A DNA stretch of 64,000 nucleotides, taken from Candidatus Neomarinimicrobiota bacterium (GTDB lineage: Bacteria; Fidelibacterota; Marinisomatia; Marinisomatales; TCS55). Where the stretch lies: positions 32,616 through 96,615 of the forward strand of contig JABIDL010000011.1 of the NCBI GenBank assembly GCA_018651745.1. Direction: 5' to 3'. The notes below the pieces were generated by a model, which worked only from the letters and a program-made list of their open reading frames with translations, ran no database searches and was not told the DNA's origin. Position 1 is the stretch's first letter. Every line of letters begins with the position of its first letter. Of this stretch, positions 18,836-44,677 are shown one piece after another. The position numbers and the translations under genes are program-made.

Positions 18836-18862
18836 CAGAGTTTAGAAAAAAAAGATAAAATT

Positions 18863-19702: not shown

Positions 19703-19714
19703 AAGTTTTCCCTC

Positions 19715-19948: not shown

Positions 19949-19949
19949 A

Positions 19950-20147: not shown

Positions 20148-20149
20148 CT

Positions 20150-20455: not shown

Positions 20456-20461
20456 TATCTC

Positions 20462-21058: not shown

Positions 21059-21070
21059 TAAAATCCTTTC

Positions 21071-23579: not shown

Positions 23580-23864
23580 TTACATTGTCCAGGAATAAGC
23601 CAAATCATACATCACTCCCCAAAGGAAATACAACGCAAGTGGAATTGGAAGCGCTATGAGACGACGCAATGTTTTGGTTTCATATCTCAAATGCATATAT
23701 ACTAATGCAACCAGCATAATTTTTGTAACAGTGATTGAGAGTAATAACGCAATAAGCCCCATTCTCGGCAATCCTAACCCAATTACCCAAACTTCAATCA
23801 CTGTCAAAATAGCCAGTCCGATGGCATTCCATAAATAGGTTTTTTTATGATCTTCCATTGTCAC
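23580..23864 (-). CDS. Cytochrome c oxidase subunit IV (operon 2)
   Basis: A 94-residue three-helix protein of the prokaryotic COX4 family. The middle helix ITVTKIMLVALVYMHLRYET (about 44-63) carries the typical K-x2-L-x3-Y-M-H pattern. It follows the subunit III gene by 4 nt. The ATG two codons further in (MEDHKK) is an equally possible start. Confidence 0.85.
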   Translation of the reverse strand: MTMEDHKKTYLWNAIGLAILTVIEVWVIGLGLPRMGLIALLLSITVTKIMLVALVYMHLRYETKTLRRLIALPIPLALYFLWGVMYDLAYSWTM

Positions 23865-23868
23865 TCCT

Positions 23869-24501: not shown

Positions 24502-24511
24502 TGTATTCCTT

Positions 24512-25096
24512 TCATAATATGATGATAAAAAACACGAAGATAATACACCACAAAACAGTGAGGAAATGCCAAAACCATCCAATCATTTGATATCGAACGG
24601 ATTTCACTTGGCGGTTATTTTTAAGTTGATACCCTAACCAGCATAAAATTGATAAACCTACAATTAGATGAACCGCGTGGACAGCGCCAATCAAATAAAC
24701 CATTCCTGCAAGAACATTACCATTGCTTGTAAATCCTATGCCAACTAACATTAGCCATAATTTAATTTGGCCGAATAAGAATACAATTCCAAAGAAGGCG
24801 CTGGCGTACAAATAGTTGAAATTTGTCGTCCCATTTCTCACATTCCATCGGTTATAAGATGAATGAAACATTAAACTACTCAAAATCAAAAGAAGGGTGG
24901 TTACGCCGGCCACTATAATTGTGTCCCCATTTAGGTTAATGGTTGCCAATTCCTTAGCCACCATTGCAGAAAATGTTGCTAGAAAAGTAACAAAGAGCAT
25001 TATAATTCCACCCAAAGAAACAAGAACCCCCATTTTAGATGTGTCCATATCACATTCTATTCGAAGCGAATCAGCAGACTGTACTTGTGGACTCAT
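24512..25096 (-). CDS. Cytochrome c oxidase subunit III-like, first copy (operon 2)
   Basis: A 194-residue five-helix protein of the subunit III family. The C-terminal part (AVHAVHLIVGLSILCWLGYQ, then MIGWFWHFLTVLWCIIFVFF) is clear; the N-terminus is divergent and lacks the Glu motif. It overlaps coxA2 by 4 nt (ATGA) and lies 10 nt before the second subunit III gene. Two adjacent subunit III genes are known from oxidase operons of Bacteroidetes and relatives, and probably form two different positions in the complex. Confidence 0.82.
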   Translation of the reverse strand: MSPQVQSADSLRIECDMDTSKMGVLVSLGGIIMLFVTFLATFSAMVAKELATINLNGDTIIVAGVTTLLLILSSLMFHSSYNRWNVRNGTTNFNYLYASAFFGIVFLFGQIKLWLMLVGIGFTSNGNVLAGMVYLIGAVHAVHLIVGLSILCWLGYQLKNNRQVKSVRYQMIGWFWHFLTVLWCIIFVFFIIIL

Positions 25097-26805
25097 GATT
25101 CATTTCCAATTTTGACAGTTTGACAAACCCAATCTGCGTCTTTCACATTGGGATTACTGTACTCATGCGGACCGTTAACCACCTGAGGGGCTGTGCTAAA
25201 ATTTCCATGAGCAATGGGATAGTCCATTGTCCATTCTAATGTATTCGATTTCCATGGATTATTTTCTGCCACTTTTCCTTTTACCATTGAATGAATAAAA
25301 TTATATAAAAACAAGATTTGGAAAGCACCAAGTATAAATGCCGAAATTGTTATAAAAATATTGATATCTGCCAATGGCTTTAGGAATTCAAATTCACCCG
25401 GATTATATAATCTACGGTGCTGACCCGCATACCCAGTAGCCATCATGTTAAAGAAGACTAGATTAATCGATATAAATGTTCCCCAGAAATGAATTTTACT
25501 TAGAAGAGGGTTCAGCATTCGACCAAACATCCTTGGATACCAGTAAGCAATTGCAGCATATCCACCAAATAATACAGATGCAGCCATGGTGTAATGGAAG
25601 TGACCCACAACAAACATGGTATCGTGAAGATAAATATCAGCTGTAACTGTCGCATTATAAAGTCCTGTAAGCCCACCTATAGCAAATACCCAAATCACGG
25701 CCATAGTATGCAACATCGGGGGGTCAAAATGAAGGGACCCACGCCAAAGTGTTGCTAACCAGTTGAAAAAGAAAATAGAGGATGGAATGCTAATTAGAAG
25801 CGTTAGAAACATAAAAGTTTTCCCCAACAAAGGACTCATCCCCGTGGTGTACATATGATGCCCCCAAACGACTGAACTTAGGACCACGATCGTACTCATA
25901 CATATAACTGTAATTTTAGCACCAAATGCCGGTTTCCTTGAAAAAACCGAGAGTAATTCAGATACAATCCCCCATACGGGCAAAATCAAGATATACACTT
26001 CTGGATGTCCAAAAATCCAGAATACATGCTGGAATAATAAAGGATCACCGCCGCCGCCTGCGGCTAAACGCCCTGCCAAAAAGAATTGAGTTCCCAGTAA
26101 TTGGTCAGTCAATAACATAATCAATCCAGCAGCAATGACCGGGACAAAAATGACATTTAAAATGGATGCAAGCCACAATCCCCACACAGACAGGGGCATG
26201 CGAAAATAGGTCATTCCCGGTGCTCGGAGCCTGATGACTGTAATGACATAATTAATGGCACCCATCATTGTGGCCACACCCATGAGTGTAATGGACAACG
26301 TCCAGAAAGCCTGACCCAAACCAGGTATCCCCCCTGCCGGTAAACTCAGGGGTGGATAGGAAGTCCAACCACCCGAAGCTACACCCAACGGTAAAAAATA
26401 TGAAACCAATAACACCACTCCCGAAAGAAAGAATGTCCAAAATGAGAGCATATTCAATGTTGGGAAAGCCATATCCTTGGCACCAATCTGAAGCGGAATC
26501 ACAAAATTCCCGAAAGCACCGATTAATAATGGCGTTATTGCCCAGAATATCATAATGGTACCATGCATAGTAAATAATTGATTATAAACATCAGGAGTGA
26601 TCATTCCCGCTTCTCCATTCACTATAGATCCAAATAGCCACCATGGAACCGGCTGCTCCGGGTATGCCAACTGCCACCGGATAAGCATGGCCTGGAATCC
26701 ACCGAAAAGTAGAAAAAATATTCCGAGAAATAAAAATTGTTTACCAATCGTTTTATGATCGGTCGAAAAAATATGGGTACTCATAATCGATTTTGAACTG
26801 CTCAT
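25093..26805 (-). CDS. Cytochrome c oxidase subunit I (operon 2)
   Basis: A 570-residue heme-copper oxidase catalytic subunit. Key ligands: MHGTIMIFWA (low-spin heme), FGHPEVYILILP and WGHHMYTTGMSP (CuB, with the A1-type Glu) and VVGHFHYTMAAS (heme pair). The frame extends to 26832, but ATG 26805 is preceded by GGAAGGAATTAAA and overlaps the coxB2 stop as ATGA, so I take it as the start. It is a paralogue of the subunit at 21071 with clear divergence, suggesting different oxygen affinity or donor specificity. Confidence 0.95.
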   Translation of the reverse strand: MSSSKSIMSTHIFSTDHKTIGKQFLFLGIFFLLFGGFQAMLIRWQLAYPEQPVPWWLFGSIVNGEAGMITPDVYNQLFTMHGTIMIFWAITPLLIGAFGNFVIPLQIGAKDMAFPTLNMLSFWTFFLSGVVLLVSYFLPLGVASGGWTSYPPLSLPAGGIPGLGQAFWTLSITLMGVATMMGAINYVITVIRLRAPGMTYFRMPLSVWGLWLASILNVIFVPVIAAGLIMLLTDQLLGTQFFLAGRLAAGGGGDPLLFQHVFWIFGHPEVYILILPVWGIVSELLSVFSRKPAFGAKITVICMSTIVVLSSVVWGHHMYTTGMSPLLGKTFMFLTLLISIPSSIFFFNWLATLWRGSLHFDPPMLHTMAVIWVFAIGGLTGLYNATVTADIYLHDTMFVVGHFHYTMAASVLFGGYAAIAYWYPRMFGRMLNPLLSKIHFWGTFISINLVFFNMMATGYAGQHRRLYNPGEFEFLKPLADINIFITISAFILGAFQILFLYNFIHSMVKGKVAENNPWKSNTLEWTMDYPIAHGNFSTAPQVVNGPHEYSNPNVKDADWVCQTVKIGNES

Positions 26806-27608
26806 TTTAATTCCTTCCATTGCCATCCCCATTTTGTTGGAACACCTTCATCCTCTTCCTCAAATCCCCAATCGTCGTCGTCGTCAGTCACTTCCGGTTC
26901 CTGAGCGACAATCCAATTATCAAATTCATCTTTTGACTCTACAGTAAGAAAACCCTTCATTTTAAAATGGCTATTCCCACATAATTCAGCACAGGCAAAT
27001 TCATAATCTCCTGTCTCTTTTGCCTGAAACCACATGGCCGTAACCATCCCCGGTGTTGCATCTTGCTTATACCTGAAATTGGGTAGATAAAACGAATGAA
27101 TGACATCGTAGGTAGTCAGTTGGACCACAATGGGCGTATTCACAGGAATATGTAAAATGTTTTGTGGAGGCACAATATCATCGTTTGTACCAAAAATATC
27201 ATCATCCCCAGGATAACGAATATTCCAAGCATACTGTTGTGGCATAATTTCTATCCTGACAACATCTTCTCCTTTGGGAAATTTCCAGAATGCTTCTTTT
27301 AAATCTTTAAATGCCATGGATTCAATCACCACATCGATTGAGAAAAATACTAAAAGACCCATAGCGACTGTCAAATAACGGTGTTTTTTAGTATTACCTA
27401 AATCATAAACTGCATGAGGGTGTTTACGTGCATTATAACGCCAAATAAAAAATATGAGTGACACAACCACAATACCAAAATAAAGCGTAATAACAAAATC
27501 TGTGTATTGGATGACATTATCGATTCTATACCCATTCAAAGAAATATCTTTAGGTGGATCCACTAACCATATTCCCCCTGTCATTGTTTTTATTATTTTT
27601 TTCATCAT
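26802..27608 (-). CDS. Cytochrome c oxidase subunit II (operon 2)
   Basis: A 268-residue CuA-bearing subunit. Two N-terminal membrane helices (about 32-52 and 76-94) precede the cupredoxin domain with VIHSFYLPNF near 167 and CAELCGNSHFKMKG near 207-220 as CuA ligands. The periplasmic C-terminus is strongly acidic (TDDDDDWGFEEEDEG) before a short basic/aromatic end, reminiscent of the acidic DEDW tail of the other coxB. No fused cytochrome c. First core subunit gene of the second oxidase set. Confidence 0.94.
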   Translation of the reverse strand: MMKKIIKTMTGGIWLVDPPKDISLNGYRIDNVIQYTDFVITLYFGIVVVSLIFFIWRYNARKHPHAVYDLGNTKKHRYLTVAMGLLVFFSIDVVIESMAFKDLKEAFWKFPKGEDVVRIEIMPQQYAWNIRYPGDDDIFGTNDDIVPPQNILHIPVNTPIVVQLTTYDVIHSFYLPNFRYKQDATPGMVTAMWFQAKETGDYEFACAELCGNSHFKMKGFLTVESKDEFDNWIVAQEPEVTDDDDDWGFEEEDEGVPTKWGWQWKELK

Positions 27609-27643: not shown

Positions 27644-28096
27644 TTAAAATGATTCCCCCAATTGTTCTCTAATATTGCTTCCCTTCGATCGTACTCTATC
27701 CCATAATTGTAAAAAGATGAAACCGAGCGAAACCATTTGTAGAACTGATGCCCAAAAAGCCATAACTAACAGCGTACCGTCAACTTGATATCCGGCAAGG
27801 ACCTCTGTGAAAAATCGCCCGATGGTCGCCGTGGCCAATACCCAATACAAAGCCCAGATGAACTTTGGGTTGTAATACTTATATCCTTTTTTTGAACGTG
27901 GAAAAAACCACGTAGCTACACCAATAATCATATTCATCACACCTCCGATTAGAATAATATGTGTATGAGCCATAATGAGTGTTGATGGTGCCAACCAACC
28001 AAATACAAAGTGGCCATATTGCCAAAACCCCGTTGCCAACCCCAGCCCAAAGCAAAGGAAGGATGTTTTAATGAAGTATCTCGAAGTTTTAGTCAT
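27644..28096 (-). CDS. Four-helix membrane protein related to heme-copper oxidase subunit I
   Basis: A 150-residue membrane protein with four helices. The region IMAHTHIILIGGVMNMIIGV (about 41-60), followed by WFFPRS, resembles segments around heme-ligand histidines in cbb3/NorB-like oxidase subunits, and homologues of this kind are often labelled as short subunit I-like proteins. The protein is far too short to be an oxidase. His44 and His46 could bind heme or copper. It sits between the hemerythrin and coxB2 on the same strand, so an accessory role for oxidase 2 is likely. Confidence 0.6.
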   Translation of the reverse strand: MTKTSRYFIKTSFLCFGLGLATGFWQYGHFVFGWLAPSTLIMAHTHIILIGGVMNMIIGVATWFFPRSKKGYKYYNPKFIWALYWVLATATIGRFFTEVLAGYQVDGTLLVMAFWASVLQMVSLGFIFLQLWDRVRSKGSNIREQLGESF

Positions 28097-28126: not shown

Positions 28127-28672
28127 TTAATTATTTACTAATTCCTGCAATTCATTTGGACAAAAACAACAATAACCGATTTCATCACATTTAATTTTCA
28201 TTTTGTCCCATTGGGAATCTTCTGTGATTGCCTGTAATGCCATGGGATATAAAATGTGATTTTCTTTATGAATATGCTGTCGAAGTGTGTCGCACAATTC
28301 AATAATTAAATAAGAGAGTGAATTGACCTGTTCTTTCCAGTTATTTCCAAATTCAACTGTTTCCTTTTTTAATTGATGTTTCATATTTCGAATTAGCCCA
28401 TGTTCTTGCCTCATGACTTGTGGCGGACCAATTATTCCCAATAATTCAAGTGCCGGAAAAAGAACATCTTCTTCCCGTTGGTGATGGGGTTCAGCGGAAA
28501 TTAATTGAAGTGAAAATTGATTTATTTGGGGTAACAGTTTTTCATTATTTGAATGATCCTGTGATGATAATTGCTCTCTTAAAATTTGCAGTTCATCCAA
28601 AATAGTTAAAATATGTTCATGTTCTGTAAACATGGTTTTTATTACATGACCGTCGTTTAATTCTTTAAACAT
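28127..28672 (-). CDS. Hemerythrin-domain protein with Cys-rich tail
   Basis: A 181-residue cytosolic HHE protein. Diiron-type ligands appear as TEHEHILTIL, PHHQREEDVLFPAL, RQEHGLIRNM and LRQHIHKENHILYPM, so an oxygen- or NO-binding diiron site of the hemerythrin/RIC type is likely. The tail ends in EIGYCCFCPNELQELV, an unusual three-Cys cluster. ATG 28672 (MFKELNDG) is preferred over ATG 28690 because AAAGGATTAGAT precedes it. The gene heads the second oxidase set and may protect or signal oxygen or nitric oxide. Confidence 0.85.
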   Translation of the reverse strand: MFKELNDGHVIKTMFTEHEHILTILDELQILREQLSSQDHSNNEKLLPQINQFSLQLISAEPHHQREEDVLFPALELLGIIGPPQVMRQEHGLIRNMKHQLKKETVEFGNNWKEQVNSLSYLIIELCDTLRQHIHKENHILYPMALQAITEDSQWDKMKIKCDEIGYCCFCPNELQELVNN

Positions 28673-28761
28673 ATCTAATCCTTTAAGCATTGTTTAATTT
28701 GATGGTAATTTTTATTATTTTCATAATCTTGTCACATAAATATCATTGGGTAAAAAACTTT

Positions 28762-30024
28762 TTATCCATAAGCTAAACTCATACCAAGATTATCTTTATT
28801 ACATTGAGCAACATCAAGTAAAAATTTATCTATCAATTGCCAGTTTACGTGTTCCATGACAACAATCTTCCACCACTTGGGCTGGCCTTTATGCGTATCA
28901 GGTACCAAAGTATATTTTTCACAGATTCTCATTGGAATATCTTCCGAAGGAATTGTCACAATATTCATGAATTCATTCCTGAAAAACTGAACATCTAATT
29001 CAGATAAAGATTTACAAATAAAGTCCGATTTTATTATTAATTGTTCCATATGATCCATGAGACCTTTTGATCCATGCATATTTAAAATCATCCAAGTGGC
29101 AATTGCATTGGCTCCGGAACGGGAACCGCAAAGCGTATGGTCCAGTCCTTCTATATAACTGGCCTCTTCAGTCAAAACATTATCAATCAACCCTTTTCTT
29201 ATAAGGAATATCCCTGTACCATAAGGCGCCTGCAGCATTTTATGCCCATCAACTGATATTGAATCCACATTTGGGTTCTCAAAATTGAAGACATTATTGG
29301 GATTGGTAAATGGGTAAATAAAACCTCCGAATGCAGCATCAACATGTATTTTAAATTGAATGTTATGAGATTTATATAAATGAGTAATCGAATCAATATC
29401 GTCAATAGATCCAAACATGGTTGTGCCCATATTCAATACTGTGATAAAATATTTAACACCATCCGCTTTCAGTTCGCTCAATAAATTATCAAGTTTTTCA
29501 AAATCAATTTCTCTGCTATTGAAATCAACGTTCAGTAATTTGAAATTCAATTGTAAAATATTACAAACTTTAAAAAGAGAATAATGAGTATCCTCCGAGA
29601 ATAATACAATTATTTCATCATTTTTCGCATCTAAAACATTTTTATAATATTCACGGTAAATCCAAACAGCTTGCATATTGCATTCGGTGCCGCCAGAAGC
29701 AACATACCCGTCATAGTTGTTGGGTACTGCTTTAAATATCTCTTCTGCACATATCCGGAGTAAATCTAATTCAAGTTTTTGTGTACCCTGAAATGATGAA
29801 ATTGATTTTTCATAGGTATGGAGTCCAATATGATTTGGGTTTTCTATAAAGGATTTAATGAATGGTGCATTTTCAAGAAAATCCGCATCCGCAGGAAACA
29901 TTTTTGGATCAAGATATGTTGCTGGTAATCCCATTATATTATGGTCATAATAACTGGCATTATGCTCCAATGCATTAAATACAAAGGTTTTTAATTCATC
30001 AAAAGAATATACGGGCCAAAACAT
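28762..30024 (-). CDS. Group II PLP-dependent decarboxylase
   Basis: A 420-residue fold-type I PLP enzyme of the aromatic-amino-acid/glutamate/histidine decarboxylase group. GGTECNMQA (about 111-119) binds the phosphate, DTHYSL (His148) stacks on PLP, HVDAAFGG (Asp229) contacts the pyridine nitrogen, and DGHKMLQAP holds the Schiff-base Lys262. It should decarboxylate an amino acid to an amine; the exact one cannot be read. It lies 21 nt after the TorD-like chaperone gene, apparently in the same operon as an aromatic amino acid hydroxylase, which favours an aromatic substrate by inference only. Confidence 0.85.
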   Translation of the reverse strand: MFWPVYSFDELKTFVFNALEHNASYYDHNIMGLPATYLDPKMFPADADFLENAPFIKSFIENPNHIGLHTYEKSISSFQGTQKLELDLLRICAEEIFKAVPNNYDGYVASGGTECNMQAVWIYREYYKNVLDAKNDEIIVLFSEDTHYSLFKVCNILQLNFKLLNVDFNSREIDFEKLDNLLSELKADGVKYFITVLNMGTTMFGSIDDIDSITHLYKSHNIQFKIHVDAAFGGFIYPFTNPNNVFNFENPNVDSISVDGHKMLQAPYGTGIFLIRKGLIDNVLTEEASYIEGLDHTLCGSRSGANAIATWMILNMHGSKGLMDHMEQLIIKSDFICKSLSELDVQFFRNEFMNIVTIPSEDIPMRICEKYTLVPDTHKGQPKWWKIVVMEHVNWQLIDKFLLDVAQCNKDNLGMSLAYG

Positions 30025-30045
30025 CTTTTAATCTTTCACATATTT

Positions 30046-30720
30046 TTAATTAATCGTGGCTTTTGATATTTTTTCACAATCAATAAAAGTGTGTAAAAAC
30101 TTTCCACTCAAATTGTAAAAGTCACCATTAATTTTATCAGCCAGATTTCCAGCAAACATTTTGGCCCAATCTGAAAAATGATTTTGATTGAAATCAATAA
30201 ATGCTGTTTCGCAAATCTCTTTTTCTTCATCTAATTCATTTGTTAGAGCTAACAACTCTTTTAGCAATAGGAAAGAAAGAAACTCGGTTTGAGTAGAAAT
30301 ATGATCGGCTCTTTCGATGGACTCCACTTCCATCCCGAATGCTTTATAAAATCCATTCAAGTCAGCCAGTTTCTGGGTGCGAAAAAACACATCGGAATTT
30401 TTTAAATGCTCCAATGCATAAGGAGCAATCTGCTTGGACAGGGTATGGCCAAATACATTCACAAATTCATTCCTGATATTTTCTTTTTTCTTTTCATCCA
30501 ATTTTGACATCAACATTTGGAAAGATTTTGACAAGGTGGTTTCTTCACTATGCTCCAACTCTTCTATTTGGAAACAGGCATCCAGAACACAGCCTTGGAT
30601 TTTGGGTGTGAACAACATGGCAAATTTTTCACTTTCGGGATCTGAAAACAGTGCAGACACAGTACCATAAAGAGTTGAACGTATTTCTAACAGATGGCTT
30701 TGTTTTGTTAATGTATCCAT
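30046..30720 (-). CDS. TorD/NarJ-like molybdoenzyme chaperone
   Basis: A 224-residue all-helical cytosolic protein of the TorD/DmsD/NarJ redox-enzyme maturation family. It typically binds the Tat signal of the catalytic subunit and assists molybdenum cofactor insertion. Visible features are EIRSTLYGTVSALFSDPE at the N-terminus, LRNEFVNVFGHT-like (IRNEFVNVFGHTLS) near 105-118 and TEFLSFLLLKELLAL in the C-terminal half. The frame runs open to 30804 but ATG 30720 lies 1 nt after the beta subunit stop and fits the family start. Its partner is the alpha subunit encoded at 32260-35778. Confidence 0.85.
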   Translation of the reverse strand: MDTLTKQSHLLEIRSTLYGTVSALFSDPESEKFAMLFTPKIQGCVLDACFQIEELEHSEETTLSKSFQMLMSKLDEKKKENIRNEFVNVFGHTLSKQIAPYALEHLKNSDVFFRTQKLADLNGFYKAFGMEVESIERADHISTQTEFLSFLLLKELLALTNELDEEKEICETAFIDFNQNHFSDWAKMFAGNLADKINGDFYNLSGKFLHTFIDCEKISKATIN

Positions 30721-30721
30721 A

Positions 30722-32002
30722 TCAAATTGAATTAAAATGAATGCCCGGCCGTTCATACATGGGTTCTTCCACTGTGGTGCGAACGCATTCTTTACCCTGT
30801 TCATTGTAACCGATCACCGTATCGTTGTATATATTTAATATCTTTTGTGAACCGTCTGAAAGTGTGACTTCTTTTTCATAAATCTTGGGACCTTTTTTAA
30901 TTTGGTATTTATAGATCACTTCTCGTTGGGCACGGAAAAGTTGCAAAATCGCCATGAGTTCACGGGATGGCGCCGTGTAACGATCGATAGCTTGTTCCAC
31001 TCCCGGGCCAAACATTTGGGTCAAATAAGCTCTGGGCGCCCATCTTGGCGGGATGTAAAAAATATTCGGTTCAGTCCCAAATTGTGGATAGAGCGGCAGG
31101 GCGACTTTTTCCTTTTGGATCATCCAGTATAATGGATTTTCTTCATCTTTTGTCCACAATCCATCTTGATTCATTTTCACTAAACCCTGCATTCGGATTT
31201 TCCCCACACAAGATGCCATACATCGTGTTTCTACCGAAACACCATCGGGTGTAATATGGTCATCCTGACCTTCCAATCTGGGATAACAAGCAATGCATTT
31301 TTCCGAAATTTTTGTCTGACCATTATACATGGCTTTCTTGTACGGACATGCTTCCACACATTTTCGATAACCGCGACACCGTTCCTGATCGATAAGAACC
31401 ACACCGTCTTCATCTCGTTTATAAATGGCTTTTCTTGGACAAGCCGCCAAACAGGCTGGATAAGTGCAATGGTTGCAAATTCGCTGTAAATAGAAAAAGA
31501 AACTCTTATGTTCCGGCAGTTTGATAGGATCGGTAATATATCCCATTTTATCTTTCTTCGTCGATTTGGGCGGCGAAACATCTTCACCAATATTGGGTTT
31601 GGTCCATTCATGATCTTCAGGTAAATAGCCCAAAACACGGGATTGCCCATTTTGCGTTTTTTCTTTTTCAGCTGCTTCAAAAATGGTCATACCATCATAT
31701 TCACCTTCATCGTTCCAAGTCATAGTTTTGTCTTGACGGTCATGAGCCTTTTGCATCAGGTTGAGCAATTTCACATCCCAATATTGGGGATAACCGCCAT
31801 AGGGCTTTGTTTCAACATTATTCCACCACATCAATTCCTGTCCCTTGGAAAATGTCCAGGTGCTTTTGCAAGCCATGGTGCAGGTTTGGCAGGCAATACA
31901 GCGATTAATATTAAAAACGGCGGCAAATTGTCTTTCTGGATATTTCCCTTCATAAGGATAACTCATATCACGGTTTATTTGCCAATTATAGACTTTATTC
32001 AT
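30722..32002 (-). CDS. nxrB: NxrB/NarH-like iron-sulfur beta subunit of a molybdoenzyme
   Basis: A 426-residue electron-transfer subunit with four iron-sulfur centres. Cys sets: CIACQTCTMACKSTW (Cys35, 38, 41, 45), CNHCTYPACLAACPRKAIY, CRGYRKCVEACPYKKAMY and CIACYPRLEG with CMASCVGKIRMQG. No signal peptide is present, so it should ride out of the cell with the Tat-bearing alpha subunit. From memory the whole protein (FSKGQELMWWNNVETKPYGG, ALPLYPQFGTEPNIFYIPPR, MFGPGVEQAIDRY) is very close to the NxrB of Nitrospira/Nitrospina/anammox-type nitrite oxidoreductases; nitrate, selenate or chlorate reductase beta subunits are the alternatives. Confidence 0.88.
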   Translation of the reverse strand: MNKVYNWQINRDMSYPYEGKYPERQFAAVFNINRCIACQTCTMACKSTWTFSKGQELMWWNNVETKPYGGYPQYWDVKLLNLMQKAHDRQDKTMTWNDEGEYDGMTIFEAAEKEKTQNGQSRVLGYLPEDHEWTKPNIGEDVSPPKSTKKDKMGYITDPIKLPEHKSFFFYLQRICNHCTYPACLAACPRKAIYKRDEDGVVLIDQERCRGYRKCVEACPYKKAMYNGQTKISEKCIACYPRLEGQDDHITPDGVSVETRCMASCVGKIRMQGLVKMNQDGLWTKDEENPLYWMIQKEKVALPLYPQFGTEPNIFYIPPRWAPRAYLTQMFGPGVEQAIDRYTAPSRELMAILQLFRAQREVIYKYQIKKGPKIYEKEVTLSDGSQKILNIYNDTVIGYNEQGKECVRTTVEEPMYERPGIHFNSI

Positions 32003-32266
32003 TTAGTTCTCCTGCCCATTTATCACATGAATATTTTCATAAATCTGACCAACAATTTTTTCAATGGATTCCTTTCCAAGTTGACTATAAGCCATAAACA
32101 AACCACCATAAAAAGGATTGGAAAACATAGTCAATAATTCATCTTTTGTTGTTCCCATATCTCGAAATTCTTCCGACATCACCTTCGCTTGATGAATTAT
32201 ATTTCCACCGGGGATTTCCATCGCTTTCATTTCGAAAGGATCTTCTTTATCGTAGTCTTTTACCAT
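32003..32266 (-). CDS. Small conserved protein between molybdoenzyme alpha and beta subunits
   Basis: An 87-residue soluble protein encoded between the alpha subunit (7-nt overlap) and the beta subunit (directly adjoining). It opens MVKDYDKEDPFEMKAMEIPG and has the helical block TTKDELLTMFSNPFYGGLFM. The pattern DP[FY]EM...P, then E..MG...E.LL.LF.NPFY, recalls small uncharacterised proteins I associate with Mo- or Fe-S-oxidoreductase loci. No Cys or His-rich site and no signal peptide. A cytosolic assembly factor or small subunit is the likeliest role, from position alone. Confidence 0.7.
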   Translation of the reverse strand: MVKDYDKEDPFEMKAMEIPGGNIIHQAKVMSEEFRDMGTTKDELLTMFSNPFYGGLFMAYSQLGKESIEKIVGQIYENIHVINGQEN

Positions 32267-35200
32267 TCATCATCTCCGATGGTTGTGATATTTCCGGCAA
32301 TATAATTTTCCATGAATTCATTTTCATTCGCTGGCGTGAAACCAGATTTAACTATGTCCAATTTCCCTTTTCCTTTCAAGCCACCTTTTTCAGCAAATGT
32401 GATTTTTACCAATGTTTCTTTTGGCGCGGTATTGATGGCGTGATTATCCGCTTCGTAACCGAATAAAAATCCCATTTTTGCTTTTGCTTTGTGGAAGAGA
32501 CTATCCAATTGCTGCATGGGCATCTGCCAGCCATAGGTTAAGGATTGGTGAGAACCATAGCGATAACTGGCCTGATATCCCGTATCTATGGATTGAGCAC
32601 GCCCATCCGCCCGGGTTTCATGAGCCAAAACAGATTTTTCAGTGGCCATCCATGCGCCGTGTTTTATCATGATCACATGGTAAGGATAAGATGGATTATA
32701 ACGGCAACGGACTTTTAACCGTGCCACTTTATAAAATGGATCCTTCACATCAAAATTGCGATAAGGGCGATTTTGGGGATCCGAATCCACATAAACATAA
32801 TCGCCATCTTCGATACCCAAATCCTTCGCCGCATCGGAATTCATATACATTGTATGCTCACCCACGCCGGGCTGCCGCTTATCCTTTCGATATGGATCGC
32901 CAAAGGGATTGCTCCAGATAAAGTGCCAATCCGTCACTGCCCAACTTGAATGGGTTGTATGGCGAGATTTTGGCGTTAAGCAATAAAATGAAAAACCGTC
33001 TTCCCATAAAAAGTTTTTGGTCTTTTTTACTTTCTGCCAAGGCAGTTTCAGATTCCGCGCCTGTCGTTCTCCCGCCGAAGTTGCATCAGCTGGAATACCA
33101 TAATCTTCTGGACGAATTAGGGGATTGTTGGAAACAATTACATTGGGCAGATAAGGCGTTGCTTCAGGACCTTCCCGATGGACGATGAAATTTTCACCAT
33201 ATTCGATAATTTCCGGTTCATCGTTGTAGGCTTGCAGTCTTCCAGTGGGGGTATAAAAAGGTGTACTTTCCTTGATCTGCTCATAAAAAGGAATCCGGGG
33301 ATAAGTCCGAAATAACATGAGCGCAGAACCGGGCTCGCCGTATTTCCCATCCATGATATCATTGGTTGTGTAACCTTTTGTCGTGTTGCTGCCGTCCAAC
33401 AGACGATCAATATAGATTTCCGTCTTTCCTTCCAGCACGAATTTCCAGTATTCTTCGAATCGTTTATCTTTCAGGATTTTACCCAACTTTTCGGCAACAC
33501 TTGCCCAAATGAGCACATCATCTTTGGAATCGAAAACTGGTTTCAAACCGCCATTCCAGATTTGCAAAAATGGATTGGAACAGGATGCAGTTAATTCATA
33601 ACTCTGTTGTTCTGCCCAACTGTTGGCCGGCAGCACAATATCCGCATACTCGCAGGTGGCAGTCATTTCAATATCCTGACTGATGATCATTTCAATCCCG
33701 GGATTGGTATTTTTTATCATTTCATAATGATACTTGGCGTTGTTCAGCAGGTTTACATTGTTATGCCAAATCGCTTTGGTGGGGGTGGGCATGTGGGTTT
33801 CGCCGGTGAATGATTTTTTACCAAATTTGGGCGTATCCACCAATAAAGGGAAATCCCCTACATTCCAATACGATGGCTCTTCTCCCCGGGCATACCCCTT
33901 GATATTTAATTCCTTTGCGGTGGCTTTTGGATCCAAGTTGGGTGCAAATGGATCTTCCGCTACCCAGCCTTTAAATCCGGGTCCAACTTCTTTTGACCCT
34001 TGGAAAATCCCTGCTTTATAATTTCCGGCCCAGGTATGGCACCCGGCACCCCGCTTGCCAATATTTCCGGTGAGAATCACCGGCAAATAACAGGCGCGAT
34101 TATTTTCCACAGCATGGAACCAGTGATTTAATCCTTCACCAATATGGATCGCCGCCGGCTTGATTGTGGCCAGATCTTTGGCCAATTGTTGAATCAATTC
34201 CCTATTTGAATGGGTGATTTCAACCACCGAATCGAGATCATAATCTTTTAAATGAATATGCTTATACGCCCAGAAAACGGTGCATATTTCAATTTCATTT
34301 CCGTCCTTATCTTTGATGGTTCCATCCCAATCAAGCGCCGGATCAATTTTTTTCTTTTTCAGGAATTCGCCAATATCTTCCCGGGTGAGCGGCTGGACAG
34401 ATTTGGTCGTCCTGTCAAAAATGGTAAAATCACCAATTTTTTCATACTGCTCTTTTTTCATGCCGTGGATTTTGAAACTGGGACCATTTTCGGATAGTTG
34501 GTTTTTATAGTCTGGAATAAAATCTTCCGGCTTCAGGCGTTTCAGCGTATCTTTTCTAATTAATAAGGGGAAGTCCGAAAATTCTTTCAGGAATTTCTTA
34601 TCGTGCCAGTTTTTATCAATAATAATCTTGGAAATACCGAGCAATAAAGCAGTATCTGTATTGGGTCGAACGGTGAGCCAATAATCAGCCTTGGAAGACG
34701 AAGCGCCGTATTCCGGTGAAATATTCACCAATTTTCCGCCCCGTTCCATGATCTCTGCCGCAAAGTGGTTATCAGCCCGTTTATTCTCCACCAAGTTTTT
34801 CCCAATCGAAACCAACAGTTTGCTGTAACGCATTTCATTCATATCCACATCGGAAGCCTGTAATCCATGAACAAATGGAAAACCGGGTGCCTGATCACCA
34901 TGCCAAGTATAGTTAGACCAATTGCGGCCGGCTTTTGCATCTTTTTTGCTAACGCCGCGAACATGATGATCCACCAACGCCAACGTATTGCTGAAGCGGT
35001 AAGCGCCATATTTCCCTATCACACCTAATAAACCCATACCACCCCGCAACTTTATAGTGCGCGTCCCGGCGCCTTCCCAATGGGTGAGCATTTCTTCAGG
35101 ATAGCCTTGTTCCAGCAATCGCTTTTTCCCAATATCGCCGCTGTAAGTTGTGGATATATTGATGAGTCCATTGGCAATGTAGTTTTCAATTTTATCCCAG

Positions 35201-35778
35201 GATATTTTCACCAAAGTATCCGTCCCGCGGGAATTGAATTTGTATTTGTCTCGGTTCGACTGCGTAAGGTATGGAAAGCCATCATCCGCCCATCGCTTCC
35301 AGCCTTTTCTCACCATGGGATATTTTAATCGGTAACTGCCGTAAATGCGCCGGTGAAAAGTGAATCCGTTGGAACAACCCCGTGGATTCCATGCATGGGT
35401 GCATTGGTTGCCGTAAAGGTCTTTAATTTTATGGGAATCGTAATTTTGTTCAGTCCGAATCATAACGCCATTGCGTTTGAAGCCCCGCATTCGGCATTCG
35501 TGGGTACAATTGGGAGAACAGATAAAAGTGAAAGAATCGTCAAATTTGTATTGGTTGCGGTAGATCTTTTCCCAATCCCTGTTTGGATAATGGGTCAGAG
35601 GATTCTCAATCCCGGGAATACCTTTCAGAAAAAACATACTTCCGGGCATGGACCATAAAAGTCCGGCGCTACCTAACCCAGCTGTACCGGCCTTTAAAAA
35701 ATCCCGACGGCTAATCCCGTTTTGTGGTTTTTGATTTTCAGGATTGACTTTACCATTATTAATAGAGTCTTTATTCAT
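32260..35778 (-). CDS. nxrA: NxrA/NarG-like molybdopterin oxidoreductase alpha subunit, Tat-exported
   Basis: A 1172-residue type II DMSO-reductase-family catalytic subunit. The N-terminus has a Tat signal (SRRDFLKAG, Arg24-Arg25) with a hydrophobic stretch at 29-50. An Fe-S cluster site follows: Cys87, Cys91, Cys95 and Cys135 (ICSPNCTHEC and NPRGCSNG). YTWHGDQAPGFPFVHG contains Asp295, the candidate Mo ligand. DIEMTATCEYADIVLPA near 730 is a typical molybdopterin-binding segment. It should oxidise nitrite or reduce nitrate (or a similar oxyanion) in the periplasm. AAGGATTAGTA precedes the ATG. The C-terminus ends GDDEW. Substrate direction is inferred. Confidence 0.87.
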   Translation of the reverse strand: MNKDSINNGKVNPENQKPQNGISRRDFLKAGTAGLGSAGLLWSMPGSMFFLKGIPGIENPLTHYPNRDWEKIYRNQYKFDDSFTFICSPNCTHECRMRGFKRNGVMIRTEQNYDSHKIKDLYGNQCTHAWNPRGCSNGFTFHRRIYGSYRLKYPMVRKGWKRWADDGFPYLTQSNRDKYKFNSRGTDTLVKISWDKIENYIANGLINISTTYSGDIGKKRLLEQGYPEEMLTHWEGAGTRTIKLRGGMGLLGVIGKYGAYRFSNTLALVDHHVRGVSKKDAKAGRNWSNYTWHGDQAPGFPFVHGLQASDVDMNEMRYSKLLVSIGKNLVENKRADNHFAAEIMERGGKLVNISPEYGASSSKADYWLTVRPNTDTALLLGISKIIIDKNWHDKKFLKEFSDFPLLIRKDTLKRLKPEDFIPDYKNQLSENGPSFKIHGMKKEQYEKIGDFTIFDRTTKSVQPLTREDIGEFLKKKKIDPALDWDGTIKDKDGNEIEICTVFWAYKHIHLKDYDLDSVVEITHSNRELIQQLAKDLATIKPAAIHIGEGLNHWFHAVENNRACYLPVILTGNIGKRGAGCHTWAGNYKAGIFQGSKEVGPGFKGWVAEDPFAPNLDPKATAKELNIKGYARGEEPSYWNVGDFPLLVDTPKFGKKSFTGETHMPTPTKAIWHNNVNLLNNAKYHYEMIKNTNPGIEMIISQDIEMTATCEYADIVLPANSWAEQQSYELTASCSNPFLQIWNGGLKPVFDSKDDVLIWASVAEKLGKILKDKRFEEYWKFVLEGKTEIYIDRLLDGSNTTKGYTTNDIMDGKYGEPGSALMLFRTYPRIPFYEQIKESTPFYTPTGRLQAYNDEPEIIEYGENFIVHREGPEATPYLPNVIVSNNPLIRPEDYGIPADATSAGERQARNLKLPWQKVKKTKNFLWEDGFSFYCLTPKSRHTTHSSWAVTDWHFIWSNPFGDPYRKDKRQPGVGEHTMYMNSDAAKDLGIEDGDYVYVDSDPQNRPYRNFDVKDPFYKVARLKVRCRYNPSYPYHVIMIKHGAWMATEKSVLAHETRADGRAQSIDTGYQASYRYGSHQSLTYGWQMPMQQLDSLFHKAKAKMGFLFGYEADNHAINTAPKETLVKITFAEKGGLKGKGKLDIVKSGFTPANENEFMENYIAGNITTIGDDEW

Positions 35779-35780
35779 TA

Positions 35781-37343
35781 CTAATCCTTCAGTTCTAATT
35801 CATACCAAGTTGAAACCATTTTTTGTCCATTCCGATCTTTTTCACTGCCATTCCAAATCGCAAATGCAATGGGAGAGGATTTGTCTTTCTTAAAATTCAC
35901 TTTTTGTTCTGAATCGGATTGGAGTTTGCGGACAAATACAACCTGCCATTTTTGTCCGTCCCATGTGCCATTACCCATTACCTTTTGTTCATTTTCAGAA
36001 AAGGGTGTTACCGTTTGGGGACCTACTGCTGTTACATTTTCGACAGGCGATGTTTTCCCTAATTCAGAATTGATATTTCCTGCATCTCTTCCGGAGAGAT
36101 AAGCCATATCATTCATGAGTGTGGGGTAAGTGTTCACATTTGAATCACTGATCCGATTGGCGTAAGCCAATACAATATCGGATTCCGTTTTTTCATTGGT
36201 CCGCATTTGCCATTCTGCTTTCCAAAACCAAATGTCTGTAGGATGATCTTCAGACCCCATTCCATGAAATCCTTTGGTTCCATCAAGTGAGAATTGAATA
36301 GCCGCCCCATCCTGAAAATCCTGTACCCGATATAATTCTTGATCTTGGGACTGATCTTCCCATTCCATTTTGATGGCAATATATTTTGAATTATAAAGAG
36401 CCTGCACATTCACCATTTGGTAATTCACATTGTCACTTTGCCATAGGCGGGAGATCGGAATGGAATAGGTTTTAGCACGATTCCATAAAGAAAAAGAAGC
36501 GTCCATAAATTGATCGGGTTTGACAAATCGACTTGTCTTTACGGCCGCCAGCTTTCTATCTTTTGCTTGATTCTGTAATATATTATCTGGTTTTGTTTCC
36601 AGACTTTTTACATAATGAACCAAAGCCCAAGCCAGTTTATTCTCTTCGGATTTTGGCTTTCCTAACACTTCAGCCAGATTTCCGTAGGATGGCATTGGCG
36701 TTCCATCCATTCCTCCTACAAATCGTAAATATAAATCCCGATTTGTTCCCCCGCCCAGGTATACACCGCTGGTAAAATCTTTTGGAATAATTGGATATCC
36801 TTGGGAATCCACCAGTTTTTGGGATGACAATCCATCACCTTTACCGGTATTCCCATGGCACATATTGCAACCAACTTCTGTATAAATTGATCTCCCTAAT
36901 TCAATGAGTTCATTCGTTACGGGTAATTCATCCGGTACAGATATTTTTTGAACACCTTTATTATTCATTGAACTGAATTTTTTCACAATATCAACCAGAG
37001 ATTTTATTTCATGTTTTTGTAAAAAATTGAAGGGCGGCATGGCCGTTCCCGGCATTCCATCGTGAATTGTAGTAAACAGATCCTGATCGGTGGGAGGGTT
37101 GCCGGCAGAAGTGGATTTTATTTTGAATACGCCATTGGTCAAGTCTCGTGGTTTTGGATAAAGTAGGTATGAATAATCTCCGTTCCCATTTCCATCTATT
37201 CCATGACATCCGGAGCAATATTCCTTATATAAAATTTCACTTTCTTTATTTTGAGCCAACAGAAAAGAGAGCGTGAATAAGATTGGAAGCGATCGTAAAA
37301 TAATTCTCTGAGTATTAATTTTATTTTTATTAAACAATTTCAA
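35781..37343 (-). CDS. nxrC: Gamma subunit fusion: diheme cytochrome c plus heme-b-binding domain
   Basis: A 520-residue exported protein. A signal peptide (about 1-30, ending LLAQ) is followed by two cytochrome c domains: CSGCHGIDGNG with axial Met in GMPGTAMPPF, then CNMCHGNTGKGD with GMDGTPMPSYG. Residues about 275-520 match the ethylbenzene-dehydrogenase-like heme-b-binding domain of type II molybdoenzyme gamma subunits (NxrC, DdhC, SerC). Electrons from the alpha/beta pair would pass through heme b to the c hemes. The start appears to be TTG, 4 nt after the hydroxylase stop, without a strong ribosome-binding site, so translation is probably coupled. Confidence 0.85.
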   Translation of the reverse strand: MKLFNKNKINTQRIILRSLPILFTLSFLLAQNKESEILYKEYCSGCHGIDGNGNGDYSYLLYPKPRDLTNGVFKIKSTSAGNPPTDQDLFTTIHDGMPGTAMPPFNFLQKHEIKSLVDIVKKFSSMNNKGVQKISVPDELPVTNELIELGRSIYTEVGCNMCHGNTGKGDGLSSQKLVDSQGYPIIPKDFTSGVYLGGGTNRDLYLRFVGGMDGTPMPSYGNLAEVLGKPKSEENKLAWALVHYVKSLETKPDNILQNQAKDRKLAAVKTSRFVKPDQFMDASFSLWNRAKTYSIPISRLWQSDNVNYQMVNVQALYNSKYIAIKMEWEDQSQDQELYRVQDFQDGAAIQFSLDGTKGFHGMGSEDHPTDIWFWKAEWQMRTNEKTESDIVLAYANRISDSNVNTYPTLMNDMAYLSGRDAGNINSELGKTSPVENVTAVGPQTVTPFSENEQKVMGNGTWDGQKWQVVFVRKLQSDSEQKVNFKKDKSSPIAFAIWNGSEKDRNGQKMVSTWYELELKD

Positions 37344-37347
37344 CCTA

Positions 37348-38058
37348 TCAAGTATTTACTTTCTGAACCAGTTCTTCAACACATCCATAAAGCTGTTCTT
37401 TATTATCTAATATGAATAGCTTGTTCTGCATTTCATCGATTCGAAATTCTTGATTAATCATAAGTTCAATATCAAAGTCAATTACTTCAGGTCCACCACT
37501 GAGTGCAAAGTCACATTCACCAATAGACGATGCAATTCCGGCGCCAAATGCACGGGGGCCGTCATCTGTTTTGATGAGGCCAAATTCAATGGTAAACCAG
37601 AAAAACCGTTCAAACTGATGGAATTTTTTTTCATTATCAATAAACATGCAGGCAACTTCACCAATTTTTTGACAAAAGTCAGCGTATTCTCTATCAATCA
37701 AAAAAGGAATATGTCCATACAGATCATGAATCATATCCGGTTCGGGTGTATAACTCAAATCTCCTTTATCTCTAATAAAATTCCCAATAGGGAATAATCG
37801 TTTTGCCAAAAGAGAATAAAAACTTTCTCCATTTTCCAGACCAGAAACATACACTCCATTAAATCCACTACTTTTCTCTAATTGTCTATTGATATCAAAT
37901 AGTTGTGGAATTTTTTCTGCTGAAATATTCAAAGTTGCCAGCCCGCTATGGAACACATCTACAACTTGTTGACTTCGGGTTTTTTCATGCATAGATAAAA
38001 CAGTATTCCATGTATCCATTTCATCCTTAGTAAATATTCTGCCCCTTGACAAGGGCAT
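37348..38058 (-). CDS. Aromatic amino acid hydroxylase (phenylalanine hydroxylase type)
   Basis: A 236-residue pterin-dependent monooxygenase, near the size of bacterial phenylalanine hydroxylases though somewhat short. Iron ligands are His111 and His116 (DMIHDLYGHIPFL) and Glu158 (FTIEFGL). It adds O2-derived hydroxyl to Phe (or possibly Trp/Tyr) using a tetrahydropterin. It is the first gene of the molybdoenzyme operon, 4 nt before the gamma subunit, which is unexpected. A pterin carbinolamine dehydratase occurs at 5202-5486. No clear Shine-Dalgarno is seen before ATG 38058. Phe versus Trp specificity cannot be decided. Confidence 0.9.
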   Translation of the reverse strand: MPLSRGRIFTKDEMDTWNTVLSMHEKTRSQQVVDVFHSGLATLNISAEKIPQLFDINRQLEKSSGFNGVYVSGLENGESFYSLLAKRLFPIGNFIRDKGDLSYTPEPDMIHDLYGHIPFLIDREYADFCQKIGEVACMFIDNEKKFHQFERFFWFTIEFGLIKTDDGPRAFGAGIASSIGECDFALSGGPEVIDFDIELMINQEFRIDEMQNKLFILDNKEQLYGCVEELVQKVNT

Positions 38059-38356: not shown

Positions 38357-39061
38357 ATGAAATACAAAACTAGTTTTTTAATTCTTTTTTCATTTTCAGT
38401 TTCGTTGATTGCAGGCGATTTGTTAGGAACAGTAAAATATGAGGGAAAAGCTCCCAAAAGAAAAGCTGTCCGAATGGATTCTGACCCTGTTTGCGGTGCG
38501 TCTCATCAAGCAAAAGTTTATAACGAAAGTTTTATTGTTGATGAAAAAGGCAATATGGCAAACGTTCTTGTATATTTAAAAGATGTTAAATTTGACGGCG
38601 ACACGCCAACAGACCCAGTCATATTAGATCAAAGTGGGTGCATGTACTCTCCACATGTTTCTGGAGTTATAGCCGGTCAGAATGTAAAAATCTTAAATAG
38701 CGATGCTACAATGCACAATATCCATGGATTACCTAAAGTCAACAAAGAATTCAATTTTGGTATGCCTAAAACTGTGAAGGAAAAAGTTATTTCATTTGAA
38801 AAAGCTGAAGATGTGTTTAAAGTTAAATGCGATGTACACCCGTGGATGAGATCTTATATTCAAGTTTTTAATCATCCCTATTTTGCAGTAACTTCGAGTG
38901 ACGGTTCTTTTAAAATTAGTGATATTCCTCCCGGTCAGTATGAAGTTATTGCCTGGCAGGAAAAATTTAGCCCACGATACGGAATTTTAGAAAAAAGTGT
39001 TACCATTGGAAAAGAATCAACAGAATTAATTTTGACGTTTAAGAGACCCGATAAAAAATAA
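38357..39061 (+). CDS. Exported cupredoxin-like copper protein
   Basis: A 234-residue protein with signal peptide (1-19). Residues about 85-170 look like a type I copper site: SDATMHNIHGLPK supplies His and KCDVHPWMRSYIQVF supplies the C-x2-H-x2-M set, in the order His...Cys-His-Met of plastocyanin-like proteins. Residues about 175-230 form a carboxypeptidase-regulatory-like beta-sandwich (SDGSFKISDIPPGQYEVIAW). It would serve as a periplasmic electron carrier. AAAGGAGTTGTATCAGAT precedes the ATG. Divergent from the Mo-enzyme operon and ending at a terminator shared with the bc-complex operon, it is well placed to carry electrons between them. Confidence 0.82.
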   Translation: MKYKTSFLILFSFSVSLIAGDLLGTVKYEGKAPKRKAVRMDSDPVCGASHQAKVYNESFIVDEKGNMANVLVYLKDVKFDGDTPTDPVILDQSGCMYSPHVSGVIAGQNVKILNSDATMHNIHGLPKVNKEFNFGMPKTVKEKVISFEKAEDVFKVKCDVHPWMRSYIQVFNHPYFAVTSSDGSFKISDIPPGQYEVIAWQEKFSPRYGILEKSVTIGKESTELILTFKRPDKK

Positions 39062-39141: not shown

Positions 39142-42100
39142 CTACCAATCCTCATCCTCTTCGTCCTCTACAATAAATCCGTACCCTTCTACTTTCAAAT
39201 GTTTCTTTACAATGGATGAAACATCCTTACGTCCTTCTAAGCCCCAAAGATAATCTCTAAGTGCATTGAGTAATATCTCGCTATCCGGATGCAATTTGGC
39301 AACATCTTTCCCCCAATTAGACCGCACATCTTCAGTGGGTTCATCAACCGGAAGATACGGTGCCGGCATTTTGGTTCCGGGCATGATAGCCTGTGGATCT
39401 CGTAACCAATCTACAACCCATCCGGGACGTAATCTCTCTTTGGTCAACGCCAGATTTGGAGCCCATGTTAGCGCCGCCTGTTTTGGTTTTTTAGATCCAT
39501 AAAAATGACAATTATTACAGGCGCCTAATTCCTGAATTACTTTTCCTGCTTTATACTTTGTTGAATTTCTATTAACCTTATGAGGATTTTCATACGCCAA
39601 CATTTGGTCATCTTTATACTGAAAATACTTTATCATTTTATTCCAATCATTATTGGATATCATATTAAAACTGGGCATTCGAACCTGTAAATTCGGTCGA
39701 ATCATGATTGGATTCTTGAAAAAATTATATAACCAAGTAGGTTGAACTTTTTTCCCTTCAGAATTTAAAATTGGTGGACCAAAAGATTGGACTAGGTTTG
39801 CGTCTTCCGCAGATTCTGTGCCTCCAACTTCTTCCAACCATTCAGCGACAGTCGATAATATAGCGCCACCATCTCCATCAATATTATGACACCCTTTGCA
39901 ATTATACGTTTGGAGAAGACGTTCACCCTCCTCAACCACCATATTACGCGTTGTTCTGGGAGGTAGTTTATCAGCGGGAAGTTCGTCATCAACCCACCCC
40001 ATAATAACCGTAACAATTGCATCAAGTTCGTCTTCATTTAATCCAAAATGAGGCATACGCATTTTTTCCAACGGACGCTTCACTTTCATTTCATAATTCT
40101 GTTCTCCTTGCGGAATCATATCATAAATACGGGGATTATCTAATTTCAAACGAAACCAATCCCATTTTGTGTGATCAATTTCATCATGCAAATAACCAAA
40201 ATCTAGTTTGGTAATTAATTTACTTCCCTCGATAGAAAGTGGAGTGCCAATTGGTTTCGCATTTTCAAACCCGCTAATATCATGACATCCAAAACAACCA
40301 TAATGACTTACCAACTTTTCTCCCGCAAAATTTAGTTTATGATTGATATCCATTGTATCAAGAACAGAATCCACCTCTTTTTTACGCCTAGTTTGTTCTA
40401 GGAACGATTTTACAATTTTATTTAGTTCGCCTTCATTTAAATCTGGAATAATTTGACTATCAAATTCTTCATTCCGATTGGACACTAAAAAGGCAGATAT
40501 ATCAGCTGCTTCTTGTTTATTTAAACGAAGATTCGGCATTTTGGATTCAGGATGATATCCTTGGGGATTTCTAATCCAATTGTAAACCCAACGCTGGGAA
40601 GTCTTGGATCCTAAATGAATTAGATTGGGACCTTGTTGGCGGCGCATTGAATTAAAGGAAGTTTCCCACTCGCTTTCAGAATCTTCTTCCATGCGATGGC
40701 ATCCTTTACAACCGAGAGAATTCACCAACATTCTGCCGTTTTCTATATTCCCCGTCGATACTCGATCCATTTTGTATGATTCGCTCTGATTAAACAGAAA
40801 TGTCACAATAGCATGGATTTCCTGATTTGTACGTTTGATCGATTCTTCATTATTGGAATTAATTTGTTTGAAAAAATGCGGCATCCATGTGTCGTGGCGG
40901 AATTCCCGTGGAGCATAAATCCACTTATATGCAAAATCTTTGGTTGTCTTAGACGCAATCTTTTTTAGTCCGGGACCAGATTTTGGAGTTTCTTCCCAAC
41001 GATCTATCTGATGGCAACCAAAACAGCCACCTTTTTCTACGATGGCGAGTCCAAGACTTAATTTCGGCGCCCCCTTTACAGGCATGGTTCCACTATGACA
41101 TTTATAACACGATGCTTCCACTAGGCTCATTGGCAGCATTGGCTCACTCCAATGGTGAAGTTTGTGCCAATGATATTTTTCTTCCCATTCTTTCTTCTGT
41201 TCTTCAGAATCGGGATAATGTACACTTGAAATAAAATCGGTACCACGTCCACGCCCCATATGGCAGGTTGTGCAACCAAATTCCTTCATCGGATGTGCAG
41301 AATTTGGTGCTATATATTTTTCTAAATCCGGATGAGTTGTATAGGGTTGTTGTGCATCCTCAAATCCGGGTTTATCAATTCCAAGATGACACGTCACACA
41401 TCGATCAACCTTCGGGACATCCAAGAAAATAAGGTCATCTTTTAAATCCTTTACCACAACTTGTTTCACTTCGTAATACGGGTTAATGAAATCAAGGATT
41501 GGTAAATCGCGCACCACATTCCCAATTTTATTGGCAAATGACATCGCTTCCGGATCAGTTTTTTTCAATCTACGTTCTAGGAGAACTTTAGACCGTTTAA
41601 CTCGCCCAACTCGATCTTTGGCCTTTTTAACATTTGACTGAATTTTCTTTACGGATTCTTCTTCTGTTTCGAGATACGATTCTATGGATTCCAAATCCAT
41701 TTTAAAGGTTAGAGTTTCCTCTTTTAACCGATTCAACTTCGCAGCCTCGACTTGTTTCTCTCCATGACCAAACATTGCCTGCTCAACAGTATATTTCTGA
41801 GCATCGTAGAGTGCTTTTGAAAATTGATAAAGCTGATTCATGCGATACTGTTCAGCTTTTAACGTGTCAATAGTGATTTGAAATGAATTAAGTTTATCCT
41901 CATTGGAAGACAATTCATTCTCAGCATCTTGAAGCTCTGAAGAAACAAGATCATATTTCTCGTTAGAAGCCAATTCTTTTTCAGCAGCACTAAGATCCAA
42001 TCGAATTTTTTCTATTTCTAATTTTCGGAAAGTTTTTTGGTATGGTTTCCATTGGCGATTAAAGTCATTCGCAAACACCAATAACCAAACAAAGGTGAAC

Positions 42101-42171: not shown

Positions 42172-42176
42172 AAAGG

Positions 42177-43295: not shown

Positions 43296-43298
43296 AAT

Positions 43299-44093: not shown

Positions 44094-44099
44094 AGAGTA

Positions 44100-44669: not shown

Positions 44670-44677
44670 TTGAAAAT

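Follow-up and report, generated by a model that had tools for sequence, protein, structure and literature searches.

The genes around the nitrite oxidoreductase (NXR) operon described here are probably the contents of a recombining O2/NOx respiratory island at which a phenylalanine 4-hydroxylase (PAH) gene and a PLP-dependent decarboxylase gene arrived separately; they are not best read as an amine-synthesis operon. The window, the whole stretch of 64,000 nucleotides that was analyzed, belongs to a metagenome-assembled genome (MAG) of Candidatus Neomarinimicrobiota (G000; 1.86 Mb, 95.8% completeness, 0.15% contamination), in which the locus lies on a 96.6-kb contig. Seven open reading frames (ORFs), all on the minus strand from 28762 to 38058, were rechecked. 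They are given below with their neighbors; G and L numbers denote genomes and loci compared.

39142 to 45547, minus strand: complex III-like cluster of a multihaem cytochrome c (1009 aa), split cytochrome b, Rieske protein, and HEAT protein
37348 to 38058, minus strand: short PAH, 236 aa, apparently an orphan cassette member (Biopterin_H, 157 bits, E 8e-46)
35781 to 37343, minus strand: NXR gamma subunit with two CxxCH c-haem motifs and an EB_dh haem-b domain (Cytochrom_C and EB_dh; C-terminal part matches Kuenenia NxrC, 7b04_C)
32260 to 35778, minus strand: NxrA, molybdopterin catalytic subunit, 1172 aa, predicted to be Tat exported (full-length match to Kuenenia NxrA, 7b04_B)
32003 to 32266, minus strand: conserved 87-aa protein between nxrA and nxrB (recurs in NXR loci)
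30722 to 32002, minus strand: NxrB iron-sulfur subunit (Fer4; matches Kuenenia NxrB, 7b04_A)
30046 to 30804, minus strand: TorD/NarJ-like chaperone (PF02613, Nitrate_red_del; TIGR03482)
28762 to 30024, minus strand: PLP group II amino acid decarboxylase, 420 aa (Pyridoxal_deC, 85 bits)
28127 to 28690, minus strand: hemerythrin-domain protein (PF01814; homologues near NXR in L006, L166, and L093)
27644 to 28096, minus strand: 150-aa membrane protein (homologues in L003, L093, and L097)
23580 to 27608, minus strand: aa3-type cytochrome c oxidase operon coxB-coxA-cox3-cox3-cox4, an extension of the same-strand run
22920 to 23372, minus strand: Rrf2-family regulator (homologues in islands L003, L098, L161, and L166)

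Pfam and NCBIfam domain calls agreed with the seven gene identities given in a preliminary description of the locus, and its ORFs, coordinates, and gap values on the one strand were all reproduced. From PAH to the decarboxylase, the intergenic gaps were 4, 2, -7, 0, 1, and 21 nt, the 1-nt gap being counted from the internal Met29 of TorD as the start. TorD probably starts at this codon, at 30720; the TorD homologue of L006 aligned from residue 29 of the window protein. Gaps as short as 4 and 21 nt imply that the genes are co-transcribed, and we infer that the seven genes lie on one joint transcript. An operon from 38058 to 28762 had been proposed; the operon-like packing held, but the same-strand run did not end at 28762. 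It continued through the hemerythrin gene, the 150-aa gene, and coxB/A/3/3/4 with gaps of at most 71 nt and ended at 23580, 207 nt before the Rrf2 gene. Upstream of PAH is a divergent gene at 38357 and, beyond it, the bc-type complex. Promoter and terminator scans gave counts scarcely above those for shuffled sequence (47 versus 38.6 and 11 versus 10.1).

Just past the Rrf2 gene is a second, divergent oxidase set (16980 to 22792) with COX1 (21071 to 22792), COX2 (18863 to 19702), CtaA, and a UbiA-family gene; this places two aa3-type oxidases next to each other. The 150-aa membrane protein, which belongs to no family, was encoded beside hemerythrin or PAH in L003, L093, and L097. The 1129-aa protein encoded at 45749 to 49138 has a type IX secretion sorting tail and contains three cohesin-type domains.

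Among solved structures, residues 23 to 1165 of NxrA matched Kuenenia NxrA with 1713 bits, compared with 191 for the runner-up and 131 for EbdA of ethylbenzene dehydrogenase. NxrB matched its Kuenenia counterpart with 583 bits; the next match scored 212, and the ethylbenzene dehydrogenase comparison gave 201. Kuenenia NxrC likewise scored above EbdC in the EB_dh part of the gamma subunit. NxrA carries a Tat signal (SRRDFLK motif; TIGR01409, 19.6 bits versus a cut-off of 16.7), and its NxrB and haem-b gamma partners are present in the operon. Since the alpha, beta, and gamma subunits all matched those of Kuenenia, the enzyme is NXR in the strict sequence sense, in keeping with the earlier label of NXR-like. 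By homology, it is a genuine Kuenenia-type NXR of the periplasmic type, and it may serve either nitrite oxidation or nitrate reduction. The EB_dh domain on the gamma subunit had raised the idea that the Mo enzyme acts on something aromatic, as an aromatic or hydrocarbon dehydrogenase akin to ethylbenzene dehydrogenase, with the hydroxylase and the decarboxylase as its partners. This reading is scarcely credible, because the alpha score for Kuenenia NxrA so far exceeds that for EbdA, and the beta and gamma comparisons point the same way. Against the EbdA model itself, the alpha subunit reached 140 bits where the cut-off is 2000, and an ethylbenzene dehydrogenase-like substrate was ruled out by the alpha and beta scores.

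Almost all NXR loci seen encode the 87-aa protein in this place, between nxrA and nxrB, with identity down to 26 to 43%. Searches of Pfam and NCBIfam found no match for it, and a PDB search none of significance; it is possibly an NXR-specific assembly factor. The NXR of two MAGs labeled Bacteroidetes (L004) and Gammaproteobacteria (L012) shared 93% and 82% identity with that of Marinimicrobia, for which misbinned or mislabeled contigs are a likelier explanation than transfer.

The window hydroxylase scored best with PAH models (224 bits, below the cut-off of 247), ahead of tyrosine and tryptophan hydroxylases. Its top solved-structure matches were all PAHs, and the nearest of them is presumably the Legionella enzyme. 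The Fe ligands H111, H116, and E158 were invariant among the PAH orthologues and the housekeeping paralogue. The enzyme is predicted with confidence to be a phenylalanine 4-hydroxylase, and identity as a tyrosine or tryptophan hydroxylase was dropped because the PAH models and structures scored higher.

Close orthologues of the short PAH (at least 59% identity) occurred in only 6 of 245 phylum genomes, and in 5 of these 6 PAH was the third and last gene of a VOC-HPPD-PAH cassette (loci L003, L096, L093, L097, and L098). The cassette HPPD, whose nearest structure is 1cjx of the Pseudomonas type, was confined to exactly those five genomes. It was about 31 to 42% identical to the housekeeping HPPD, the form found in the rest of the 105 genomes matched; all five cassette genomes also hold the housekeeping form. 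Upstream of the window PAH, no trace of HPPD or VOC was found at an E value of 1. By its orthologues, the window PAH is predicted to be the surviving third gene of a cassette that has lost VOC and HPPD. The window genome has a separate long PAH and a housekeeping operon of tyrosine catabolism for an aminotransferase, HPPD, FAH, and a homogentisate dioxygenase-like protein. HgmA_C was dropped as a marker of homogentisate catabolism because it missed this divergent 384-aa protein, which was revealed by its neighborhood and by HgmA_N.

The decarboxylase scored below every NCBIfam equivalog cut-off. The highest score was with the histidine decarboxylase model (227 bits versus a cut-off of 305), and the score with MfnA (188 versus 299.4) likewise fell short of placing it among aromatic (tyrosine or tryptophan) decarboxylases. 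Its nearest solved structures were histidine and serine decarboxylases, and residues H261-K262 were invariant. Orthologues occurred in 5 of 245 phylum genomes. In one of these (G125; L161, 2180 to 4316), genes for a class V aminotransferase-like protein and a YceI-domain protein lie upstream of the decarboxylase gene and an Rrf2 regulator lies downstream; these neighbors possibly hint at its substrate.

NXR was found in 17 genomes. A survey of NXR neighborhoods, as the preliminary description had proposed, revealed the gamma-alpha-small-beta-TorD core with both PAH and the decarboxylase missing in at least six loci with readable flanks (L006, L008, L011, L013, L015, and L166); L004, L005, L007, L010, L012, and L014 were not counted, as a contig end was close on at least one side. 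The six loci contradict the reading of that description by its own standard, since it had named homologous loci without the two genes as grounds for rejection. The full window gene order was seen in one other genome only (G025, L003), through recent recombination. Three genomes had both the short PAH and the decarboxylase (G000, G025, and G167), 3 of the 6 with short PAH lacked the decarboxylase (G004, G126, and G135), and 2 of the 5 with the decarboxylase lacked short PAH (G023 and G125).

The linkage of PAH and the decarboxylase to NXR or NarG is nevertheless not due to chance. PAH was on an NXR or NarG contig in 5 of 6 genomes. The cassette or its PAH shared a contig with NXR in G000, G025, and G135, where it was adjacent, and in G004, at 10.9 kb from TorD; in G167, the cassette was 4 kb from a canonical NarG (1265 bits). 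In G126, the PAH contig is 3.4 kb long, and no NXR or NarG was found. Similarly, the decarboxylase was on such a contig in 4 of 5 genomes (NXR in G000 and G025; NarG in G167 and also in G023, where it is 18 kb away); G125 had neither NXR nor NarG. Housekeeping PAH and HPPD were never on an NXR or NarG contig in the genomes compared. The co-occurrence P values, which ignore phylogeny and are indicative only, were 2.2e-4 for short PAH with NXR (2.2e-3 with the recombined pair counted once) and 8e-5 for PAH and the decarboxylase on one contig in three genomes, including G167 outside the recombined pair (2e-3 collapsed). A nonrandom association of the hydroxylase with nitrate/nitrite molybdoenzymes is therefore upheld. 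The cassette or its PAH also neighbored genes for aa3 oxidase or for cytochrome c assembly, and the G167 island, without NXR, reads DC-coxBACCD-VOC-HPPD-PAH-cyt c-NarG (DC, decarboxylase). In G135, which represents a second family, PAH is directly upstream of the NXR gamma gene, with 99 nt between them.

The preliminary description had linked the two outer enzymes in a pathway from Phe through Tyr to tyramine, or from Trp to serotonin, yielding a signal or cofactor-related product and co-expressed with NXR. The tight packing with NXR, the sharing of a contig by PAH and the decarboxylase in three genomes, and the rank of the archaeal tyrosine decarboxylase MfnA as second-best decarboxylase family are all consistent with this proposal. 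However, the tyramine/serotonin pathway is unsupported because PAH belongs with the HPPD cassette, in which it normally follows HPPD and the product is homogentisate, and because the decarboxylase is distributed differently among genomes and has histidine decarboxylase as its top-scoring model. The existence of the NXR core without both genes also argues against it, and we regard it as improbable. Insertion of NXR between an already adjacent PAH and decarboxylase was likewise rejected, since the two are adjacent in no genome, and in G167 a distance of 6.4 kb, containing the cox operon, separates them.

Positions 28200 to 37600 of the window were 99.1% identical over 9401 bases to positions 2700 to 12200 of L003, although G000 and G025 belong to different GTDB genera. 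At the block edges, identity dropped to 64 to 84% inside PAH and 60 to 71% inside the 150-aa gene, where the breakpoint is at about 27.8 to 27.9 kb, and the outer flanks differed. Patches of 82 to 96% identity occurred inside nxrA at about 32.8 to 33.1 and 33.8 to 34.0 kb. This pattern suggests exchange of the whole NXR operon between genera, plus local gene conversion. Because the breakpoints fall inside PAH and the 150-aa gene, it is probable that each recipient carried an upstream PAH and a downstream 150-aa gene before the exchange. Shared sequence between unrelated outer flanks in two metagenome assemblies could also result from an assembly or binning artefact that fused an NXR block with flanks of other origin in at least one of the MAGs. 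Such an artefact is very improbable given the completeness and low contamination of G000, the length of its contig, the position of both breakpoints within homologous genes in the same order, and the independent recurrence of PAH upstream of gamma in G135. G023 has the decarboxylase together with homologues of 38357 to 39061 and 39142 to 42171 in conserved order and orientation with other genes between them, and both NXR and short PAH are absent from it. The site next to the bc complex thus resembles a hot spot at which respiratory modules collect.

In the respiratory island that we favor, NXR would exchange electrons between nitrite or nitrate and cytochrome c, as its family suggests, and electrons could flow from nitrite through NXR and cytochrome c to the aa3 oxidase, with the bc complex adjoining. 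A complete cassette would convert phenylalanine to tyrosine, 4-hydroxyphenylpyruvate, and homogentisate, to judge from enzyme homology, and may be a mobile, O2-dependent duplicate of the housekeeping pathway. In the window genome, any tyrosine made by PAH would enter the housekeeping pathway, and the decarboxylase would be another gene of this hot spot with a distribution of its own. On this view, the genes have a locus in common, and also an O2/NOx niche and probably a promoter; they move together by homologous recombination and need not belong to one metabolic pathway. A shared niche and shared mobility are the simplest account. Some shared function is possible, because PAH next to gamma recurs in G135 and PAH with the decarboxylase recurs in G167. 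Retention of a second HPPD set in five genomes despite a housekeeping HPPD counts against our explanation, which leaves its benefit unexplained.

That benefit might lie in redox chemistry. Cassette homogentisate could serve the island as pyomelanin, in ferric reduction and oxidant or NO scavenging, or as a benzoquinone like the methyl-plastoquinones of Nitrospira, with the window PAH as a remnant. The cassette or PAH lies on NXR/NarG contigs and near oxidase or cytochrome c assembly genes as set out above, the cassette HPPD is of the Pseudomonas type, and the solved structure nearest to the window PAH is presumably that of Legionella PAH. Legionella PAH contributes to pyomelanin synthesis (PMC3458870), and plastoquinone-like quinones are present in nitrite-oxidizing Nitrospira (PMC12324825). 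The same Nitrospira study, however, found quinones uninvolved in nitrite respiration. Genomes with the cassette and those without it had similar numbers of UbiA-family prenyltransferases, and gain of a dedicated homogentisate prenyltransferase along with the cassette was rejected for lack of a clear difference in counts. In addition, cassette HPPD and VOC are missing from the window, and the homogentisate dioxygenase-like and FAH genes of G000 would degrade the product. We consider this redox role unlikely. It is rather unlikely, too, that selection keeps PAH-HPPD as an accessory of NXR/NarG islands and that its homogentisate product serves respiration in some Marinimicrobia as a quinone, an electron shuttle, or an iron- or NO-handling pigment.

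A second PAH-HPPD set accompanies nitrite/nitrate respiratory islands in this uncultured but abundant marine phylum, and the housekeeping copies lie elsewhere. Should the homogentisate formed in these islands act in respiration, iron handling, or nitrosative stress, aromatic amino acid chemistry in oxygen-deficient zones would be tied to nitrite oxidation. An NXR operon that passes whole between genera, through recombination in the genes that flank it, would affect how nxrA is read as a taxonomic marker. No report of a PAH/HPPD cassette linked to NXR was found in the papers searched.

Marinimicrobia (Marinisomatota) nxrA was already known from oxygen-deficient zones (PMC10359470); the passages available from that source report presence of the gene, in the same phylum as the window. 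The decarboxylase belongs to the same PLP group II family as bacterial histidine decarboxylase (7eru/7erv), serine decarboxylase (8jik), and archaeal MfnA and, unlike these, falls under all NCBIfam equivalog cut-offs. Complete cassettes resemble the homogentisate/pyomelanin pathway of Legionella PhhA with HPPD (PMC3458870) in enzyme families and expected product. Unlike those of Legionella, the Marinimicrobia genes sit in NXR/NarG islands, and the window copy is without cassette HPPD. The window NXR is like that of Kuenenia stuttgartiensis (7b04) and the periplasmic NXR of Nitrospira and Nitrospina in its full-length NxrA and NxrB homologues, the Tat signal on NxrA, and the EB_dh haem-b gamma subunit. 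It differs from the Kuenenia enzyme in an extra N-terminal dihaem cytochrome c part of gamma, outside the stretch aligned to NxrC, and from all three in that the 87-aa gene lies between nxrA and nxrB and the operon is flanked by PAH and a PLP decarboxylase.
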